This document shows positions 4,821 to 28,695 of a DNA stretch of 30,621 nucleotides, piece after piece. The notes beneath the pieces are model-generated. The model did no database searches, was not told where the DNA came from, and saw only the letters and a program-made list of their open reading frames with translations. The stretch comes from a virus: IMG/VR virus record IMGVR_UViG_3300044825_000829, positions 1 through 30,621 of that record; one strand, written 5' to 3'. How positions within the stretch are numbered: position 1 is the first letter of the stretch; each line of letters begins with the position of its first letter. A program made the position numbers and the translations under genes.

Positions 4821-6368
4821 ATGCCATATTTCATCAGCGACAAGCAAAGTGATTGCAGCGGATGGGCGACTGTCAAAGAAGAATCTGATGGTTCATACAC
4901 AACCATTGGATGTCATGAGAACAAGCAAGATGCGATTGACCAAATGGTTGCAGTTTCTATTGCTGAAGATATGGAACCCGGTGGCGAAGTAAGCAAGCGC
5001 CAAGTGGATTTGACTGTTCCGACCTATATTCGCCAGAACGCACAACGCGGATTGGAATGGGTTCGTGAAGGTTTCGGGGGCGATGGTCTAACCGAAAAGA
5101 CCAAGCGCGAAGCGCGAGAGATGGCAGATGGTTCGGTGAGTGAGAGCAAAGCACGCCGCATGGCTGCATGGTTTGCCCGTCACATGGTTGATCTTGATTC
5201 GCCAGAAGTAGGCGATGAATCAAAGCCAACACCGGGAATGGTTGCGCATGCACTTTGGGGCGGCTACCCAAAGAGCGAGAGCGACAGAGCAATGAAATGG
5301 GCGCAACGCAAGGTTGCCGAATTAGATGCAGAAGCCGCAGATTCAAGGAGCAAACAAGTGGCAAAGAAGATTGAACGCCGCACATTCGCGGTGCAGAACA
5401 TCGAAGCAAGAGCAGCAGAAGATGGAACAATGCGGCTTTCAGGATATGCCGCAGTTTTCAACAACCCATCCGTTCCGCTTCCATTCGTTGAGAAAATCGC
5501 ACCGGGCGCATTTCGCAAAACACTCTCTGAAATGCCAGATGTGCGCTTGCTCATCAATCATGAAGGTCTTCCATTGGCTCGCACCAAAAATGGAACACTC
5601 ACGCTTGAAGAAGATTCGGTTGGTCTTCGCTTTGATGCGATAATCGCCAACACCACAGAGGGGCGCGATTTGTACGCACTTGTTGAGCGTGGCGACCTTG
5701 ATCAAATGAGTTTTGCATTTCGCGTGATTCGTCAAGCATGGAACTCTGATCGCAGCGAGCGAACACTCAAAGAAGTTTCCCTTGCCGATGGCGATGTTTC
5801 TGTCGTCACTTATCCTGCATACCCTGCAACATCGGTGGAAGCCCGCGAACATTTACGCAATGCAATCAAGGCCATGAAGGAAGGTCGAGAAATCACCGGC
5901 GAATCCTTGCTGGTTCTTGAATCAATTTTCAAAGATTTGTCAGAAGGTCATGACTACATCATGAAATCTGTTGAAGTGATGTCACAACTTCTTCAGATGG
6001 ATGCAATGGAAGAAATTGAAGACATCGAAGACATCGAGGAAGAAGATTCCAGAGCAGTTGATGTTGTTGGCGATTTCGTAGAATGGGATTCATCTGGTGG
6101 AACTGCGCGTGGTCGCATTGAGCATGTGATGCGCGAAGGTGTTCTTGGAATCCCAAATTCTGACTTTTCTATCACCGCAGAGGAAGATGACCCCGCAATC
6201 CTGATTCGCGTTTATGAGGAATACAATGGCGGCTGGCGAGCAACAGAAACACTTGTTGGTCACAAGTCATCGGAACTGCGCCCAATTGATCCACTACCTG
6301 AACCAAGCGAAGAAGCATCTCGCAAGATTTCCCTTCGCTACGCGAAAGCCCTACGAAACAAAATCTAG
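4821..6368 (+). CDS. Multidomain capsid maturation protease
   Basis: A 515-residue protein whose centre (about residues 185-345) is an HK97-type prohead protease (PF04586): LSGYAAVFNNPS, IAPGAF, the catalytic-His region LLINHEG (His247) and the catalytic-Ser region DQMSFAF (Ser297). Upstream are two added parts: residues 1-50 (CSGWATVKEE...GCHENKQDAI), resembling a short module common at the N-terminus of phage structural polyproteins, and residues 65-170 with a helical WAxxxA-type domain (ARRMAAWFARH, TPGMVAHALWGG). Downstream, a helical and acidic linker (345-410) leads to a C-terminal domain (415-490: GDFVEWDSSGGTARGRIEHV) resembling a Tudor/SH3-like fold of the hypervirulence-associated (Hva1) type. 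It cleaves capsid protein or scaffold during head maturation; the extra domains may serve as scaffold. Confidence 0.9.
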   Translation: MPYFISDKQSDCSGWATVKEESDGSYTTIGCHENKQDAIDQMVAVSIAEDMEPGGEVSKRQVDLTVPTYIRQNAQRGLEWVREGFGGDGLTEKTKREAREMADGSVSESKARRMAAWFARHMVDLDSPEVGDESKPTPGMVAHALWGGYPKSESDRAMKWAQRKVAELDAEAADSRSKQVAKKIERRTFAVQNIEARAAEDGTMRLSGYAAVFNNPSVPLPFVEKIAPGAFRKTLSEMPDVRLLINHEGLPLARTKNGTLTLEEDSVGLRFDAIIANTTEGRDLYALVERGDLDQMSFAFRVIRQAWNSDRSERTLKEVSLADGDVSVVTYPAYPATSVEAREHLRNAIKAMKEGREITGESLLVLESIFKDLSEGHDYIMKSVEVMSQLLQMDAMEEIEDIEDIEEEDSRAVDVVGDFVEWDSSGGTARGRIEHVMREGVLGIPNSDFSITAEEDDPAILIRVYEEYNGGWRATETLVGHKSSELRPIDPLPEPSEEASRKISLRYAKALRNKI

Positions 6369-13291: not shown

Positions 13292-14538
13292 TGGCAACAC
13301 CGGCAACCCTTGGTGTGGAAATAAACTTCTCCAATGGCGCATCCTTCGGAACTGTTCTTTTGCTTGATGACCCATCAACACCATTGGACACCGGCGTTCT
13401 TGGTGATGCTGTAACTGTGATTGCTGATGTTTCCAATCAAACGCAATCAGTTCAAATTCGGCGCGGATACAATCGCATTGCTGACAACTTCAGCACTGGA
13501 ACTGCAAGCGTGGTCATCATTGATGCCACAGGTGACTTCAACCCCGACAACACTTCATCGCCCTATTATGGACTTTTGACACCCTTGCGAAAAATTCGCA
13601 TTTCTGGAACTTACAATTCAACAAAGTATTATGTATTCAGCGGATACATTCAGTCATTCCGGTATCAAGCACCAAACGGAACAGAACTTGCCCGCGTGTT
13701 CATTGATGCGGTGGATGGTCAAGCACTCTTGAATCTTTCGACTGTCACAACAATTGCCAGTTCAGGTGTTCAAGATAGTGGAACGCGCATCAATCGAATT
13801 CTTGATGCAATCGGCTGGCCATCATCCATGCGTGAGATTCAAACGGGCGCAAGCACACTTCAGGCTGATCCCGGCGGGAACCGGAGCGCCCTTGATGCCA
13901 TCCTCACAGTTGATGACAGCGAATTGGGCGCATTCTATTTTGATGAATTAGGTCAAGCCACCTTCATCAATCGCACCAACCTTTCCACAGCAATCACTGG
14001 CGTTCCCACCATTTTCACCGATGATGGATTAGGAACAGATATTGCATATCAGGATGTTCAATTCAATCTTGATGACACCCAGTTGGTGAATTATGTATCG
14101 GTACAACGGGTCAATGGAACTGCGCAGATTGCTTTCGACCAAACATCCATTGATGCATATTTCCAGCGAACACGACTTCGCCAAAATCTTTTGATGCAGA
14201 CGGATGAAGAAGCGTTCGACCAAGCAAACACTTTCTTGTTCAGTCGCAAGGATTCAGAGATGCGCGTGGATGCAATCGTTCTGGATTGTTCGGACAACAC
14301 CGAAACAGAGCGCATCCAAGCAGCACTTTCCATTGATTTCTTTGCACCAATTCAAGTCACCCGCGAACTTCCCGGCGGGGCAGTCACACGCAAATTGCTG
14401 GTGCAGGGAATCCAGCACAACATCACGCAATTCTCATGGGTGACGACCCTTGAAACTGCACTTCCGCAGATTTCGAATGTCTTCATCTTGGATTCTCCCG
14501 ACTATGGCGTTCTTGACCAAAACGCTCTGTCGTACTGA
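13291..14538 (+). CDS. Minor tail protein / tail hub
   Basis: A 415-residue, mainly beta protein directly after the tape measure, the position of the distal tail or hub protein. Segments such as VQIRRGYNRIADNFSTGTASVVIIDATGDFNPDN, YYGLLTPLRKIRI and the mid-region QTDEEAFDQANTFLFSRK are typical of minor tail proteins in which an N-terminal tube-like domain precedes a hub domain. No enzymatic motif is seen. The start ATG overlaps the tape measure stop (TAATG). A distal tail/Tal-like fusion is a fair reading; the exact structural slot is inference. Confidence 0.75.
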   Translation: MATPATLGVEINFSNGASFGTVLLLDDPSTPLDTGVLGDAVTVIADVSNQTQSVQIRRGYNRIADNFSTGTASVVIIDATGDFNPDNTSSPYYGLLTPLRKIRISGTYNSTKYYVFSGYIQSFRYQAPNGTELARVFIDAVDGQALLNLSTVTTIASSGVQDSGTRINRILDAIGWPSSMREIQTGASTLQADPGGNRSALDAILTVDDSELGAFYFDELGQATFINRTNLSTAITGVPTIFTDDGLGTDIAYQDVQFNLDDTQLVNYVSVQRVNGTAQIAFDQTSIDAYFQRTRLRQNLLMQTDEEAFDQANTFLFSRKDSEMRVDAIVLDCSDNTETERIQAALSIDFFAPIQVTRELPGGAVTRKLLVQGIQHNITQFSWVTTLETALPQISNVFILDSPDYGVLDQNALSY

Positions 14539-17375: not shown

Positions 17376-17639
17376 ATGAACCGGGGGAAGATACTTGATG
17401 AAGCCAAACGGCTGATTCATACCGACAGGCAGAAAGACTACGGCCACCCACGCATCAATCATCAACGGATTGCATCGCTGTGGTCAGTTATTCTTGAAAC
17501 AGAAGTGACACCAGCGCAAGCAGCCTTGTGCATGGCGATGGTCAAAGCAGCAAGACTTGTGCAGACACCCGATCATGAGGATTCCTACATTGACGGCGCT
17601 GCATATTTTGCGATTGCTGGTGAACTCAGCCATGAGTGA
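17376..17639 (+). CDS. DUF6378-like protein
   Basis: An 87-residue helical protein: RGKILDEAKRLIHTDRQKDYGHP, then FxS-type linker, ETEVTPAQAALCMAMVKAARL and DSYIDGAAYFAIAGEL. The HTDRQKDYGHP and the final YIDGAAYxAIA are characteristic of a small phage family (DUF6378) of unknown function found in many dsDNA phages. An AAGGAG site precedes it. It lies between the holin and the glycan genes and overlaps the following gene by eight bases, so it may be expressed late with them. Confidence 0.7.
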   Translation: MNRGKILDEAKRLIHTDRQKDYGHPRINHQRIASLWSVILETEVTPAQAALCMAMVKAARLVQTPDHEDSYIDGAAYFAIAGELSHE

Positions 17640-18309
17640 TTTGGCCATCATCACACCAAGCCGCAGCAGACCACAGAACATTGAAGCACTTTTGCAATCG
17701 TTTGAAGATACCGATGCCAAATGCAAATTGGTTGTTGTCGTAGATGATGACGATCCTGAACTTGAAAAATATAAAGCCATCAAGATTCCCCTCTTGATTC
17801 AATTGCCCCGCGAAGGAAAAGGCATGGCGCGACCACTCAATCGCGCAGCCCAAATCCTGCGGGGCGAATTTTCGTTTTTCGGCTTCCTTGGAGATGATCA
17901 CCGCCCACGCACAAAGAACTGGGATGAAATCATCATCAGCGAACTGGAAGACATGCCCGTTGGATTGGTTTATGCAAACGACCTTCTGCAAGGTCATCGC
18001 CTTCCCACGCAAGTTTTCATGACCGCAAACATTGTGGATGCGTTGGGTGGGATGGTTCCGCATGGCTTTGAACATTTGTTCTTGGACAACTTCTGGCTGA
18101 AGTTGGGGCAAGACCTGCAAGCCATCCGATATTTGGGTGATGTCATCATCGAACACATGCATCCCTTCGCCGGCAAAGGTCAGATGGATGCGTTGTATCA
18201 GGAAGTGAATAACCCTAACCTTTCCAATCGTGACCAAATGAGATTTGCCGAATACATCAAGTCAGTTGATTATCAAGAACTTTTGGATGTGCTTGCATGT
18301 ATGAAGTGA
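17632..18309 (+). CDS. Glycosyltransferase, GT-A type
   Basis: A 225-residue protein with the opening LAIITPSRSRPQNIEALLQS, common to GT-A glycosyltransferases, a first acidic nucleotide-binding site VVVVDDDDPE (residues 34-43) and a second metal-like motif FFGFLGDDHRPRT (83-94, GDD). The helical C-terminus includes HGFEHLFLDNFWLKLGQ and a conserved late His in IIEHMHPF. I start at the ATG at 17632, eight bases inside the previous gene; an in-frame opening at 17557 would extend far into that gene. First of three likely sugar genes; the acceptor is unknown but virion glycosylation is likely. Confidence 0.75.
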   Translation: MSDLAIITPSRSRPQNIEALLQSFEDTDAKCKLVVVVDDDDPELEKYKAIKIPLLIQLPREGKGMARPLNRAAQILRGEFSFFGFLGDDHRPRTKNWDEIIISELEDMPVGLVYANDLLQGHRLPTQVFMTANIVDALGGMVPHGFEHLFLDNFWLKLGQDLQAIRYLGDVIIEHMHPFAGKGQMDALYQEVNNPNLSNRDQMRFAEYIKSVDYQELLDVLACMK

Positions 18310-19019
18310 TTTCATATTCGTTGTATGGCACAAATGAGCGATACACCATCGGCGCAATCAAGAATGCACTATTGGCACAAGAATTCTTTCCCAATGCGCA
18401 GGTGTGGTTCTATGTCGGCCAATCAGTTCCATTGCCTATCAAGCAGACCTTGGAATTGATGATGAATGTGCGTGTCAAAGAAGTGGATGAACCCGAAGAC
18501 AACTTCGCCCGGTTATGGCGATATTACGCCTTCAGCGATGAGAAGGCTTCCCTTGTTCTCTGTCGAGATGTGGATCCCCGGTTAGGCCAGCGGGAAAGTG
18601 TGGCACACGCACACTTCAAGAAGTCACTCTTTGATGCTCACATCCTCAAAGATCATCCATCAGGTCACAACTATCTGATCAGCGCCGGGATGTTTTCGGC
18701 ATACACAAAGAACTTGCGGGATATGAAGGAATGGATCACCGACTACCGGAAGACCGCCCGCGATTACTACATGACCGACCAAGACTTCCTTGCTTCCATC
18801 ATTTATCCGCGCATCAAAGAGAAAGTGCTGGTGCATGATGACTACTATCAAACGCCGGTGGAAGGAAAGAGCGAACGGCGCAACTTCCCCATCCCACGCA
18901 TCAGCACCTTCAATCACATCGGCGCGGCGCTCAATGCTGATGACACATTCTTTTTCACCGATGATGCCAAAAGACATTTTGCAGAAACAGGTTCGCACTA
19001 TTATGAAACGGGGCAATGA
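18297..19019 (+). CDS. Glycosyltransferase-like protein
   Basis: A 240-residue protein that opens EVISYSLYGTNERYTIGAIKNA, followed by a hydrophobic strand VWFYVG, the nucleotide-sugar motif LVLCRDVDPRL (DVD at 91-93) with the RE pair that follows it, and HAHFKKSLFDAHILKDHPSGH. This is the signature of a small glycosyltransferase family encoded near O-antigen or glycan genes and in phages. It probably transfers a hexose; the partner could be the other gene products of this cassette. It starts at ATG 18297, 13 bases inside the preceding gene, and its stop overlaps the next start. Confidence 0.7.
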   Translation: MYEVISYSLYGTNERYTIGAIKNALLAQEFFPNAQVWFYVGQSVPLPIKQTLELMMNVRVKEVDEPEDNFARLWRYYAFSDEKASLVLCRDVDPRLGQRESVAHAHFKKSLFDAHILKDHPSGHNYLISAGMFSAYTKNLRDMKEWITDYRKTARDYYMTDQDFLASIIYPRIKEKVLVHDDYYQTPVEGKSERRNFPIPRISTFNHIGAALNADDTFFFTDDAKRHFAETGSHYYETGQ

Positions 19020-19897
19020 TGGACATCCTTATCACCGGCAGCGAAGGTTTTGTTGGCCGCGCATTCCAGCGACATTTTGAGAAAGACAGAAACAACCATG
19101 TGATGCGCATTGACATCAACAAATCATCACATGCGATGGATGCCAGACATTTCTTTTCGTACAACAAACATCAATTTGATTTGATCATCCATCTGGCGGC
19201 GATAGTCGGTGGCCGCGCCACCATCGAAGGTCAGCCGATGGCGGTGGCATCTGACCTTGCCATTGATAGCGACTTCTTTCAGTGGGCTTTGAAAACCAAA
19301 CCCAAGCGGATTGTATATTTCTCATCATCAGCGGCATATCCAACTTTTCTGCAAGAGCAACCCGGAACGCAATTGCAAGAACGCGACATTGATTTGGCAA
19401 ACATCAAGAATCCAGATTTGACCTATGGATGGGTGAAACTCACTGGTGAAATGCTGGCAAATTATGTGCGCAAAGAAGGATTGAAAGTTTCCATCTTCCG
19501 ACCATTTAGCGGATATGGAACTGATCAAGATGCGGCCTACCCATTCCGCGCCTTCATCGAGCGTGCCAAAGACTTCACCAATCCTTTTGAAATCTGGGGC
19601 GATGGAACGCAGACCCGCGACTTCATCCACATCGAAGATGTCGTGCGGGCAACCTTGGCCGGCATCGAAGCCGATGTGGAAGTTGCCAACCTTTGCACCG
19701 GGCGGGCAACCGACTTCAACACGCTGGCTCAAATGGTGGCGGCTGAAGCCGGCTATCAACCGGCCTTCAGACGGCTTCAGGATGCCCCTAGGGGCGTTTC
19801 CTACCGGGTGGGCGACCCCACCTTCATGAACACCTTCTACACCCCTCAAATCGCCTTAGAAGAAGGAATTGCTAGGGCGCTGGCGGGGGTCATTTAG
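19016..19897 (+). CDS. NAD-dependent epimerase/dehydratase (extended SDR)
   Basis: A 293-residue extended short-chain dehydrogenase/reductase acting on nucleotide sugars. Visible features: Rossmann motif GSEGFVG (8-14), acid after strand 2 (RIDIN), LIIHLAA (57-62), the Ser site YFSSSAAY (101-108), catalytic YGWVK (Tyr137, Lys141), FRPFSGYG and the WGDGTQTRDFIHIEDV segment typical of UDP-glucose epimerase/GDP-fucose synthase relatives. It could epimerise or reduce an activated sugar for the two glycosyltransferases upstream. The exact substrate cannot be read from sequence. A second ATG follows immediately (19019). Last gene before the strong terminator. Confidence 0.85.
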   Translation: MMDILITGSEGFVGRAFQRHFEKDRNNHVMRIDINKSSHAMDARHFFSYNKHQFDLIIHLAAIVGGRATIEGQPMAVASDLAIDSDFFQWALKTKPKRIVYFSSSAAYPTFLQEQPGTQLQERDIDLANIKNPDLTYGWVKLTGEMLANYVRKEGLKVSIFRPFSGYGTDQDAAYPFRAFIERAKDFTNPFEIWGDGTQTRDFIHIEDVVRATLAGIEADVEVANLCTGRATDFNTLAQMVAAEAGYQPAFRRLQDAPRGVSYRVGDPTFMNTFYTPQIALEEGIARALAGVI

Positions 19898-22974: not shown

Positions 22975-23306
22975 CACAACATCGCAAGCATCGGGGCTAC
23001 GCCACACAGCGGATGGTGCAGGATTTCCTCAAAGAGAATGGATTTCCCTACGCCACCAGCGCCGGCGCAGGTTCCCAAGGCAGCGACATCATCAACATCA
23101 AAGATGTGGATTTTGAAGTCAAAGCCCGCAGGGGATTTCCGATTGCTGAAGCGATGAAACAACTGAAAGAGCGTTCGAAGGATGACCACCTAGGTGTGGC
23201 AGTTCTTCGATTGGATGGAACCGGCTCGAAAACCATCGAGCAATGGCCAGCCATCCTGACATTTGGGGCATTGGTTGAACTGCTGAAAAAAGCGGGATAC
23301 CGATGA
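22971..23306 (+). CDS. PD-(D/E)XK nuclease, resolvase-like
   Basis: A 111-residue protein with the pattern of small Holliday-junction resolvase/RecB-like nucleases: basic N-terminus (QHRKHRGYATQRMVQDFLKE), GSDIINIK (the catalytic Asp), then FEVKARRG (the E-x-K pair) and a helix KQLKERSKDD. These fit the metal site. The role would be processing branched or single-strand-gapped DNA in replication and packaging. It follows the small-gene cluster with ATGA overlap and precedes the WhiB gene with another; a host-DNA-degrading role is the main alternative. Confidence 0.7.
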   Translation: MTQHRKHRGYATQRMVQDFLKENGFPYATSAGAGSQGSDIINIKDVDFEVKARRGFPIAEAMKQLKERSKDDHLGVAVLRLDGTGSKTIEQWPAILTFGALVELLKKAGYR

Positions 23307-23770
23307 ATCAGATTGCCATATTCGTTCGCACACTTCCACGATTTCCATTCGCGGAATGTGCAAAGAACGGCATTGATCCTGACATGTTCTTCCCGGATAA
23401 CAAGCAGGAAACTGCTGAAGTGATCCATGCATTGCGGAAGATATGTGGTCAATGCGTACACAGAAAGGAGTGCTTCACCTACGCCATACGGGAAGGCATC
23501 AATCATGGGGTTTGGGCTGGTTCGTTACCAGAGGAACGCGCATTTCTTGCCGGTCTGACTGAACACAAACCAGACATTGAGAACCTTGTGCAGCGCATCG
23601 AAAGATTCGAAGCCAAAGGATTGATGCAACACCAGATTGCAAGGGAAATGGGATTCAGCGAACTAGAAATCGCCACAATCCTGACCCTTGCTGGAAGAAA
23701 GGAAGCATCATCAAAGAAAGAAGAATCTTCGCCATCCGTTTCCTCTCAATCATTGCCATCGGTTCTCTGA
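23303..23770 (+). CDS. WhiB-like iron-sulfur regulator with HTH tail
   Basis: A 155-residue protein with four Cys at 19, 48, 51 and 57 (C...CxxC-x5-C) and the following GVWAG turn (residues 69-73), the complete WhiB signature, normally binding a [4Fe-4S] cluster. WhiB proteins are restricted to actinobacteria and their phages, where they bind the sigma factor and alter transcription. Here the domain is followed by residues 90-130 (IERFEAKGLMQHQIAREMGF, SELEIATILTLAGRK), which look like a helix-turn-helix, and a Ser-rich tail. It may reprogram host transcription. The Ser-rich tail is coded over the probable signal-peptide region of the next gene. Confidence 0.85.
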   Translation: MNQIAIFVRTLPRFPFAECAKNGIDPDMFFPDNKQETAEVIHALRKICGQCVHRKECFTYAIREGINHGVWAGSLPEERAFLAGLTEHKPDIENLVQRIERFEAKGLMQHQIAREMGFSELEIATILTLAGRKEASSKKEESSPSVSSQSLPSVL

Positions 23771-25919: not shown

Positions 25920-26119
25920 TGAAAGATTTTGGAGCGCTGGCGTTGGCACTGTGGGAAGAATATCGTGATGAACTTCCTGATTCGCCGGGAAGAATGACGG
26001 CGCGATTGCTGAAGAATTTGCGAGCGCGTGGCTTTGATTTGATTGACCACAAATTCCACGATGACAATCCATCGCGGGCTTATGAGCGAGAGAGTGACTA
26101 CAAAGGGAGAAATTTGTGA
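25919..26119 (+). CDS. Small helical protein before the primase
   Basis: A 66-residue protein of unknown function: KDFGALALALWEEYRDELPD, then GRMTARLLKNLRARGFDLID and a charged tail. The start GTG 25919 follows GGAG (25910-25913) by five bases. The gene lies between the tRNA-like element and the primase-helicase and overlaps the latter by four bases, suggesting a replication-related role; helical, Arg-rich character is compatible with DNA or protein binding. Confidence 0.6.
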   Translation: MKDFGALALALWEEYRDELPDSPGRMTARLLKNLRARGFDLIDHKFHDDNPSRAYERESDYKGRNL

Positions 26120-28179
26120 CACAGGAAATCTTGACCCAAGCGTTGAAGTTCGCAACGGCGGGAATCTCTGTTGTTCCGGTGGCGAATGATGGCAGCAAAA
26201 GACCGGGCATCGAAAGTTGGAAGAAATATCAAGAACGAATGCCGGATGTTTCGGATTTGATGCGATGGTTCGGCAAACCGCAAGATGGCCTTGGTTTGAT
26301 TTGCGGGAAGGTCAGCGGCAATTTGGAAATGCTCGAACTGGAAGGTCGGGCAGTTGCCGAAGGAATCCATGAGCAAGCAGCAGAGATCGCCAATGCATCA
26401 GGATTGGGTGACATCTGGAAGACCATCAATGAAGGATATTCCGAAGTAACGCCATCGGGCGGCATCCATTGGCTTTATCGCATCAGCGATTGGGAAGTTC
26501 CCGGAAACAGCAAAATTGCCCGCCGACCCGGTGAGAACGGCGGCGTGGAAGTGTTGGTCGAAACACGCGGCGAAGGTGGCTTTGTGATTGTTGCACCATC
26601 GGGCGGGAATGCCCACCCATCGGGCGGCAACTGGAAGATTCTTTCGGGAACACCGGAATCCATTCCCTCTTTGACATTCGCCGAACGCGAAGCGTTGCAT
26701 GCCATCTTTCAAGCATTCGATTCGATGCCCCAACCTGAAGCCATCAAACATGAGATTGCGCCATCAGTAGAAGGAACGCTGACACCGGGAGATGATTACA
26801 ACCAGCGGATTCAATGGGATCAGATTCTCGAACCGCTAGGGTGGAAGAAAGTGTTCACCGCCAAGGGAACAACCTATTGGCGCAGACCGGGCAAGGAAAC
26901 AGGCATCAGCGCCACCACAGGGCGCAATGGGGGCGACAACTTGTTCGTCTTCACTACTTCCACCACCTTTGATGCAGAACGCCCCTATTCCAAATTTGCG
27001 GCCTTCACGCACCTTCAACACAATGGCGACTTCCGGGCGGCGGCCAGAGAACTGCGGAAAATGGGATATGGCGGAATCAGTGTTGCCACACCAGTTCTTT
27101 CCTCTCCTGCTTTGATTACACCATTGGATGATGAAGGCCAACCCAAACCAGAATCCAGTTGGATTCCGCAGAACATCGAATGGGAAGATGATGGAACCGA
27201 CATTCAGCCAACTATCTTCAAGCGGGCAGATGGCAACTGTGTCTTCTATCCGGGGAAAATCAATGCACTCTTTGGCGAAAGTGAATCGGGCAAAACTTGG
27301 GTGGCGCTCGCCGCAGTCGTTGAGCAATTGATGGAAGGCAATGAAGTCTTCTATTTGGATTTTGAAGACAGCAGACATGGGATCAGAAGCCGATTGAAGG
27401 CATTGGGTATCGAGCAGGAACACCTGCACCATTTCCGCTATTCGAACCCGGATGATGCCTTCGATGTGGCGGTTCGGGATTTCCTGCAAGTTGCATTGGA
27501 AGAATCCAAACCTTCCTTGGTTGTGGTGGATGGCGTAAATGCAGCGATGAATTTGATGGGGTTGGACTTAGAAAAGAACAAGGATGCGACCTTTTTCAGT
27601 CAGATGGTGCTGCGCCCGTTGCGCAACTTCGGTGCGGCTGTCGTCACGATTGATCATGTGACCAAATCCAAAGATTCACGCGGCAACTACGCCATCGGCG
27701 CACAAGCCAAGCGTGCTGACATTGACGGCTGCGCAATTGCGGTGGAGATGGTGATGCCCTTTGGTCGCGGCGGTTCTGGTGAATTGCGATTGAAAGTCAC
27801 GAAAGACCGCCCCGGCTTTGTGCGTGCCATCTGCCTTGAAGCAACGCAATTGGGAACAGTTCATCTTGCCAGCAATGGTTCGGGCGTAGGCATTCACTTC
27901 ACCGGGGCAACCCCCGAAGCGATGCCCGACAAACGCGATGTGGTGCGATCAGCAGTCTTGAAGTTTATGAAAAGTCATCGGACAGAGATGAGCCAACACC
28001 AGATTCTCATGAGCGAGGAAATCCCGCACCGAAGCGATGCAGTGAAGACCGCGTTGATGTCGCTCGCCCACGATGGATTGCTTGGCTATCGAGAGAAAGG
28101 TCGCGCAAAATTGTTCACATGGCTGCGAGATGAAGTGGGTGATGAACCTTGGGAACCACTCAATTCGGTTTCGATTTAG
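26116..28179 (+). CDS. DNA primase/polymerase-helicase
   Basis: A 687-residue replication protein. The first ~190 residues are a bifunctional primase-polymerase (prim-pol) domain: TAGISVVPVANDGSKRPGI, GLGLICGKVSGNLEMLELEG (acidic metal site, E-x-E rather than D-x-D), the conserved GGIHWLY (His118) and VETRGEGGFVIVAPSG. After a linker comes a RecA-fold helicase of the RepA/DnaB type with Walker A GESESGKT (about 386-393), Walker B SLVVVDGV (near 466-473), the VVTIDHVTK motif and the GAQAKRADIDG region. A winged-helix-like C-terminal part follows. It would prime and unwind DNA at the phage origin. Start is GTG 26116. Confidence 0.9.
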   Translation: MTQEILTQALKFATAGISVVPVANDGSKRPGIESWKKYQERMPDVSDLMRWFGKPQDGLGLICGKVSGNLEMLELEGRAVAEGIHEQAAEIANASGLGDIWKTINEGYSEVTPSGGIHWLYRISDWEVPGNSKIARRPGENGGVEVLVETRGEGGFVIVAPSGGNAHPSGGNWKILSGTPESIPSLTFAEREALHAIFQAFDSMPQPEAIKHEIAPSVEGTLTPGDDYNQRIQWDQILEPLGWKKVFTAKGTTYWRRPGKETGISATTGRNGGDNLFVFTTSTTFDAERPYSKFAAFTHLQHNGDFRAAARELRKMGYGGISVATPVLSSPALITPLDDEGQPKPESSWIPQNIEWEDDGTDIQPTIFKRADGNCVFYPGKINALFGESESGKTWVALAAVVEQLMEGNEVFYLDFEDSRHGIRSRLKALGIEQEHLHHFRYSNPDDAFDVAVRDFLQVALEESKPSLVVVDGVNAAMNLMGLDLEKNKDATFFSQMVLRPLRNFGAAVVTIDHVTKSKDSRGNYAIGAQAKRADIDGCAIAVEMVMPFGRGGSGELRLKVTKDRPGFVRAICLEATQLGTVHLASNGSGVGIHFTGATPEAMPDKRDVVRSAVLKFMKSHRTEMSQHQILMSEEIPHRSDAVKTALMSLAHDGLLGYREKGRAKLFTWLRDEVGDEPWEPLNSVSI

Positions 28180-28180
28180 C

Positions 28181-28291
28181 ATTGACCCCGATTGTGGGTC
28201 AATGGGTCAATAGCGGGTCAATAAAGTGGCAAGGCGTAGGGGTTTCTATTGACCCATCATTCCCCCCCCTATGGGGGGAATGTGGGTCAAT
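28181..28291 (+). repeat. Six-box iteron array with nested hairpin
   Basis: The 8-mer GGGTCAAT occurs at 28196-28203, 28204-28211, 28215-28222 and 28284-28291, and its complement ATTGACCC at 28181-28188 and 28248-28255. Between the last two lies a perfect 9-bp stem ATTCCCCCC (28259-28267) / GGGGGGAAT (28273-28281), so 28248-28291 forms one large stem with a small interior loop. This fills most of the 141-base gap between the primase and next gene. Candidate replication origin or operator. Confidence 0.9.
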
Positions 28292-28320
28292 ACCCGAAGC
28301 GGCGGATTTGGCTGAATCTC

Positions 28321-28695
28321 ATGGATGACATCTTCCAGTCTTCTTGGTGTAAAAGTTGCCGCGCCGCAACTTGGTCGGGGTATGTTCGCGGGAGAATCCC
28401 GATTGAACTTGATGCGAAGTCGCTCAACTATTTTGAGGAAGCCAAGGCGATTGAAGAAGGATGTTCGACCTACCTTTGCCAACCGGAATCCAATGGTCAG
28501 TTCTGGGTGTCGGTTCGAGATGCATTCGGCGTGAGTTGGTGGCACAAGAAGGTCATCAACAAATCTGCTGGCGCATTCGTAGTGCTGGCAACCCATCAAT
28601 GCCACAGCCAACGGGCGCTGGCATCGCATGAATTTTTCTTTGGCAAGCGCCAGCAGCCAACCGGCGATGGCGGGGATGAAAGGATTCCGTTCTGA
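28321..28695 (+). CDS. Cys-containing protein next to the iteron array
   Basis: A 124-residue protein of unknown family: DDIFQSSWCKSCRAATWSGY (a CxxC pair at the N-terminus), YLCQPESNGQFWVSVRDAFG, then FVVLATHQCHSQRALASHEF. A Cys/His zinc site is possible. It directly follows the iteron array and so is a candidate binder or regulated gene. The ribosome site before ATG 28321 is weak. An in-frame TTG at 28249 would read through the repeats and is unlikely. The stop overlaps the next start (TGATG). Confidence 0.6.
   Translation: MDDIFQSSWCKSCRAATWSGYVRGRIPIELDAKSLNYFEEAKAIEEGCSTYLCQPESNGQFWVSVRDAFGVSWWHKKVINKSAGAFVVLATHQCHSQRALASHEFFFGKRQQPTGDGGDERIPF

Follow-up and report, generated by a model that had tools for sequence, protein, structure and literature searches.

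A candidate replication origin behind a phage primase-helicase gene, with a constant hairpin nested in exchangeable boxes

Introduction

The P4 α protein unites a primase, a helicase and a winged helix in one polypeptide; it binds origin repeats through the winged helix and then unwinds and primes (PMC4234260). ORF904 of pRN1 combines a Prim-Pol domain, a helicase and a C-terminal winged helix, and a stem-loop directly downstream of its gene is needed for replication (PMC4234260). In RSF1010, with RepA, RepB′ and RepC, the iterons of oriV serve the initiator, RepA is the helicase and the primase works at short ssi stem-loops (PMC4234260). SaPI Rep and Cch2 are helicases whose C-terminal domain recognizes short repeats directly 3′ of the respective gene (PMC7581432), and RepA of the PLE satellites of Vibrio cholerae has a DNA-binding domain that varies together with the iterons, the two having been exchanged as a module on more than one occasion (PMC8263062).

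Here, we analyze a locus in a viral DNA of 30,621 nucleotides (IMG/VR record IMGVR_UViG_3300044825_000829, positions 1 to 30,621; hereafter the window). An earlier inspection of the letters, made without database searches (the sequence-only reading), had proposed an origin at 28181–28291 with a hairpin for recognition or priming, and had named two downstream proteins as possible binders. In our best reading, which draws on analogy, the element would work like the origins of P4 α, SaPI Rep and pRN1/RSF1010.

Results

Six boxes and a nested hairpin follow the primase-helicase gene

The gene at 26116–28179 (forward strand) encodes a protein of 687 residues with a Prim-Pol domain (residues 9–176; PF09250, 2e-13), a RecA-like AAA_25 helicase domain (residues 380–519; PF13481, 1e-14) and a predicted C-terminal winged helix (residues ~606–669). 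In the PDB, a full-protein model best matches pRN1 ORF904 at its prim/pol domain (9aam, 1rni), followed by KaiC-type RecA folds; confidence in this model is low between domains. Directly behind the gene, an exact 8-mer (GGGTCAAT/ATTGACCC) occurs six times within 111 nt (28181–28291). Box 1 (28181–28188, reverse strand) and box 2 (28196–28203, forward) form an inverted pair spaced by 7 nt, box 3 (28204–28211, forward) adjoins box 2, box 4 (28215–28222, forward) follows, and box 5 (28248–28255, reverse) and box 6 (28284–28291, forward) are the 5′ and 3′ arms of an outer inverted pair. The region is non-coding, with the stop codon of the primase-helicase gene at 28177–28179 and the next ATG at 28321. 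The number of the boxes, their pairings, the non-coding setting and the lone further copy at 14108 are all as the sequence-only reading had described them. The comparison with shuffled controls that it had proposed gave seven copies in the whole window against 1.5 expected. Among 300 Markov genomes as long as the window, none had an 8-mer with more than three non-overlapping copies per 120 nt, as against six in the array, and the best cluster elsewhere in the window by this measure holds three.

The outer boxes enclose a hairpin of a C-run and a G-run (28258–28282) with a loop of 5 nt (CATTCCCCCC-CCTAT-GGGGGGAATG); its perfect stem, first taken to be 9 bp long, measures 10 bp. The strand carrying the hairpin and outer boxes folds at −24 kcal/mol (z −7.6). 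An intrinsic terminator, that is, a GC stem followed by a U-run, was considered and set aside, as no U-run stands behind the stem. The sole match in an Rfam search with the element was a microRNA family that scored far under the gathering threshold, which we take as chance, and a literature search on the hairpin letters gave nothing relevant among the matches listed.

The layout is kept in relatives and the box sequence changes as a set

Relatives were drawn from viral contigs, as 17 loci and then two overlapping lists of 80; 104 distinct loci were used, and 102 were given a box class. Their comparison establishes that the array layout behind the same primase-helicase gene is kept in about 100 distinct loci. 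The 102 classified loci fall into nine box classes: TTGACCC, CCGTTCC, CTGTTTCCC, CCGAACC, CTGTTCC, CCGATCC, CCGATAC, TTGACCG and ACCGCGC. Box copies within one phage agree bar minor variants, and between phages all change together. The sequence-only reading had expected conserved boxes, and this holds for the close relatives L003 and L020: their non-coding arrays match that of the window at 91% identity, with every box, including boxes 1 to 4, unchanged, and third codon positions of the gene beside it are just 58% identical. Distant relatives instead keep the layout while the box sequence switches as a set.

A hairpin of the C-run/G-run type is present in 101 of the 102 relative loci scored; in the remaining one (L136), it lies slightly further on. 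A forward box on its 5′ side and an inverted box on its 3′ side, the arrangement made by boxes 5 and 6 in the window, recur in 100 of 101 relatives scored. The hairpin tip has two main types, CTCTTTAGAG and CCTATAAGG/CCTTATAGG, independently of box class, since classes B, E and F are found with both. In three loci (L044, L053 and L067), the reading frame runs past the usual site of the stop codon, and array and hairpin become a translated C-terminal tail (LTDLTD...FAPPYKGGRSVKSV); that the boxes and hairpin are kept even as codons fits a DNA element.

A WhiB-like regulator encoded at 23303–23770 of the window points to an actinobacterial host, and the cultured phages closest by primase are those of Arthrobacter. 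In Arthrobacter phage Peas, the next gene contains AGTGACA repeats, without a hairpin of the window type, and no convincing array was found in Arthrobacter phage Shambre1. A search of a genome collection returned distant Prim-Pol relatives only and no close prophage. Three consecutive ORFs in the late region of the window (17557–19897) resemble glycosyltransferases and a nucleotide-sugar epimerase in sequence and possibly serve surface or DNA glycosylation.

The predicted winged helix co-varies with the boxes

The last ~85 residues of the primase-helicase are modeled as a winged helix, with helices at 606–620, 622–627 and 641–652 and wing strands at 656–661 and 664–669 in the full model. The domain modeled alone with AlphaFold has a moderate mean pLDDT of 72. 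The best fold matches include the Hop2 winged helix (Z 9.5) as well as Zalpha and Fur-type winged helices; the P4 α origin-binding domain is absent among the matches listed, which does not exclude likeness. A search of the PDB with the domain sequence gave weak winged-helix matches only (best E 0.013).

We compared 322 pairs of proteins at least 90% identical over residues 1–590, of which 264 share a box class and 58 differ in it. Identity at residues 622–648 is 93% in same-box pairs versus 50% in different-box pairs, percentages that are descriptive and not significance levels, as the pairs are not all independent. Box class makes a clear difference only past residue ~600: averaged per column, it amounts to 0.002 across residues 1–590 and 0.38 across residues 600–672. 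No part of the protein other than the winged helix co-varies with box class, and we infer that this domain (codons 27931–28122, forward strand) reads the boxes, with residues 641–652 (28036–28071, forward strand) as the predicted recognition helix. Where box position 2 is T, residue 629 (codon 28000–28002) is nearly always Gln; where it is C, most phages have Glu or Asp. This resembles a DNA-recognition code but is only a lead, because the data are structured by descent and exceptions exist: two CCGTTCC phages have Gln, and one CTGTTCC phage and three with the consensus CTGAACC have Asp or Glu.

The domain and the array move as one cassette

Genome comparison shows that the winged helix and the array are one cassette exchanged between phages. 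In L079 and L160, the enzyme core is 99.5% identical, the C terminus is 45% identical and the boxes are different; three further pairs (L008/L009, L005/L006 and L027/L031) have a core common to both and differ in C terminus and box. The reverse swap is seen in L005 and L011, with a core identity of 87.6%, a C-terminal identity of 98.8% and the same box. The DNA identity of L008 and L009 drops from about 0.9–0.99 to about 0.5 between ~−265 and +128 around the stop codon and returns to 0.97 beyond. The exchanged piece, with sharp breakpoints at about −265 and +128, is therefore a cassette of ~390 nt that holds the C-terminal domain and the array. Box class requires 19 changes on the tree of the core versus 12 on that of the C terminus.

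Linkage of the adjacent C-terminal codons and array could by itself mimic such co-variation. No different-box pair has C termini more than 84% identical, and the pairs at 84% belong to classes one or two box bases apart; this account counts for less because a near-identical C terminus never occurs with another box class.

The first gene beyond the array (28321–28695, forward strand) encodes a Cys-rich, zinc-ribbon-like protein that is a conserved neighbor and whose identity can reach 100% between phages with unlike boxes, and an HTH protein starts at 28695. L008 and L009, whose boxes differ, encode the Cys-rich protein with 100% identity, and their DNA matches at 93–100% in nearly all 100-nt blocks between +128 and about +2100. 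The Cys-rich protein is therefore not the determinant of box type, and the downstream identity speaks against both neighbors, suggested earlier as box binders, as readers of the boxes.

The hairpin is associated with AAA_25 helicases beyond the family

A scan of viral contigs for CCCCTCTTTAGAGGGG, which used DNA only and no protein information, gave at least 112 new usable loci, with 38 of the window family and 74 others among those listed. At these 74, an AAA_25-like helicase ORF ends nearby in 35 and a repeat array with inverted flanks is present in 49. Ten upstream ORFs at hairpin loci, picked for their helicase-like look, all matched AAA_25 in Pfam, with a Toprim, a Prim-Pol or no recognized primase domain; some other hairpin phages combine Toprim_3 with AAA_25. 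The AAA_25 count for CCCCTCTTTAGAGGGG (TTTA) is not fully independent, because the profile was built from nine of these ten ORFs and the window protein. A scan for CCCCCTATAAGGGGG gave 120 loci, 24 of them in the family; of the other 96, 64 have arrays and 19 have AAA_25 nearby. A complete control scan, in which the stem was kept and one base of the loop altered (ATTA), gave 70 matches, with no family member, one array and one AAA_25. These sequence scans demonstrate an association of hairpin and helicase, in which AAA_25 helicase genes of unrelated primase type mostly end about 80 nt away from the hairpin, beside arrays of other boxes.

Several cultured phages, among them Alteromonas phage PB15, Idiomarinaceae phage 1N2-2, Salicola phage CGphi29, Microcystis phage MinS1 and Streptomyces phage Dagobah, have arrays behind the helicase with a hairpin nested in inverted boxes. 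In Dagobah (6090–6290), nine AACCGGT-type boxes lie inside the 3′ end of a RadB-like gene, and a CTCTTTAGAG hairpin tip follows. Roseobacter phage CRP-406 and Verrucomicrobia phage P8625 also have arrays behind the helicase, the P8625 record without the hairpin. A scan with the Dagobah helicase found no relatives, and one with the P8625 helicase found only two, near-identical.

In some marine-type phages, the hairpin and box layout adjoins the gene for the terminase small subunit. In L308, L314, L299 and L347, the hairpin is CCCCCTATAAGGGGG and the arrays are of the types TACGTCA/TTACGTCA, TAGGCAA and TAACGTA; arrays of the ACTTACC type also occur in this position. An AAA_25-type helicase lies some kb away or is not seen in the piece; in the related pieces L378, L322 and L402, a match to one is elsewhere in the contig. 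This placement weakens a strict link of hairpin and helicase, and in these phages the element may serve packaging or be an origin located away from its initiator.

Comparison with described initiators and origins

Primase and helicase share one polypeptide in the window (Prim-Pol PF09250, AAA_25 PF13481), as they do in P4 α. The primase is of the Prim-Pol (AEP) kind, unlike the Toprim primase of P4 α (PMC4234260). A C-terminal winged helix is a further likeness, predicted from the AlphaFold model and its PDB matches. The P4 α helicase belongs to SF3, whereas that of the window protein is RecA-like AAA_25, and, to our knowledge, the P4 origin has no constant C/G hairpin between paired inverted boxes. 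Binding to iterons at an origin is a putative trait here, with indirect support from co-variation. As in the SaPI rep-ori, the window iterons lie immediately 3′ of the putative initiator gene; the SaPI origin has two iteron sets flanking an AT-rich region, whereas the inverted boxes of the window flank a C/G hairpin. The helicase families also differ from those of SaPI Rep and Cch2, for which the available part of the source describes no fixed hairpin of the window kind.

The Prim-Pol domain, with prim/pol as best structural match, and the stem-loop directly downstream of the gene, here within the outer box pair, are shared with pRN1. ORF904 instead has an SF3 helicase, and the 100-nt stem-loop of pRN1 is without iterons. 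Unlike RSF1010, with its three separate proteins, the window has one polypeptide and a hairpin inside the iteron array. As in PLE RepA and its ori, the initiator domain and boxes of the window family co-vary and are swapped together; the RepA_N domain is unrelated, its ori lies in a separate intergenic region and only two specificity groups are described (PMC8263062).

Discussion

We consider it likely, from sequence comparison, structure models and analogy, that the array is a replication origin 3′ of its initiator gene, with boxes read by the primase-helicase's own winged helix and a hairpin for helicase loading or priming. Layout, co-variation and precedents make an iteron/hairpin origin the best-supported reading, in line with the sequence-only proposal; GC skew does not add to it, as it climbs through the right half of the window without inflecting at 28.2 kb, in a record that is linear and possibly incomplete. 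In the proposed mechanism, the winged helix would bind the repeated boxes and so gather a RecA-type helicase ring at the array, and the duplex would open at the C/G hairpin, whose short loop is T/A, or next to it. The single-stranded hairpin, or the dyad, may then position helicase loading and the first primer from the Prim-Pol domain, which would give the nested hairpin the recognition or priming role first suggested for it. Exchange of the winged helix and boxes as a cassette would confer a new origin specificity on a constant core and hairpin, and this change of specificity may be its purpose.

The element might instead be an autoregulatory operator, in which the primase-helicase or another regulator binds the boxes and thereby governs transcription of the genes downstream, with the hairpin acting as terminator or attenuator. 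An array between two co-directional genes, with a strong stem, would suit such a role, but a scan of 28050–28450 matched neither a U-run terminator nor a sigma-70 promoter. The array also lies 3′ of the gene for the binding protein and can sit inside a coding frame, and across unrelated phages its position is near-constant relative to the helicase gene, not to any one downstream gene. We regard an operator as unlikely. A packaging site of the cos/pac type, bound by the terminase small subunit, seems quite unlikely: the marine-type phages carry hairpin and arrays directly beside the gene for that subunit, and the window terminase would be as close as about 2.4 kb were the genome circular or permuted, but box type tracks the C terminus of the primase-helicase, and the spacing between the element and the helicase stop is near-fixed, mostly some 55–90 nt, across the window family and many other AAA_25 phages. 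An origin whose boxes are read by another protein, whether a host factor, the HTH protein or the Cys-rich one, a conserved neighbor with zinc-ribbon-like cysteines, is very improbable given phages with different boxes whose Cys-rich proteins are 100% identical and whose DNA is near-identical for about 2 kb downstream.

Beyond the replication origin proposed for the window, a fixed-tip hairpin (CTCTTTAGAG or CCTATAAGG-like) in inverted hypervariable iterons may mark an undescribed, widespread class of phage origins that works with RecA-type AAA_25 helicases whatever the primase or host, and through a sequence-specific loop; we see the case for this wider proposal as evenly balanced. Its many box specificity groups, exchanged with the winged helix, would be comparable to incompatibility or immunity groups, and might, as speculation, let phages escape interference by origin decoys, satellites or origin-directed nucleases. 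In PLE satellites, ori modules are swapped under nuclease attack (PMC8263062), and in lambda, one report deals with the arrest of phage proliferation by ectopic copies of the cognate origin (PMC4488673).

As a sequence rule, a fixed hairpin inside inverted variable boxes points to probable origins in many uncultured phages. The matched winged helices and boxes form a natural library, a source for a DNA-recognition code and for rules of origin compatibility. They also make it testable whether phages diversify their origins against co-infecting relatives, satellites and origin decoys.
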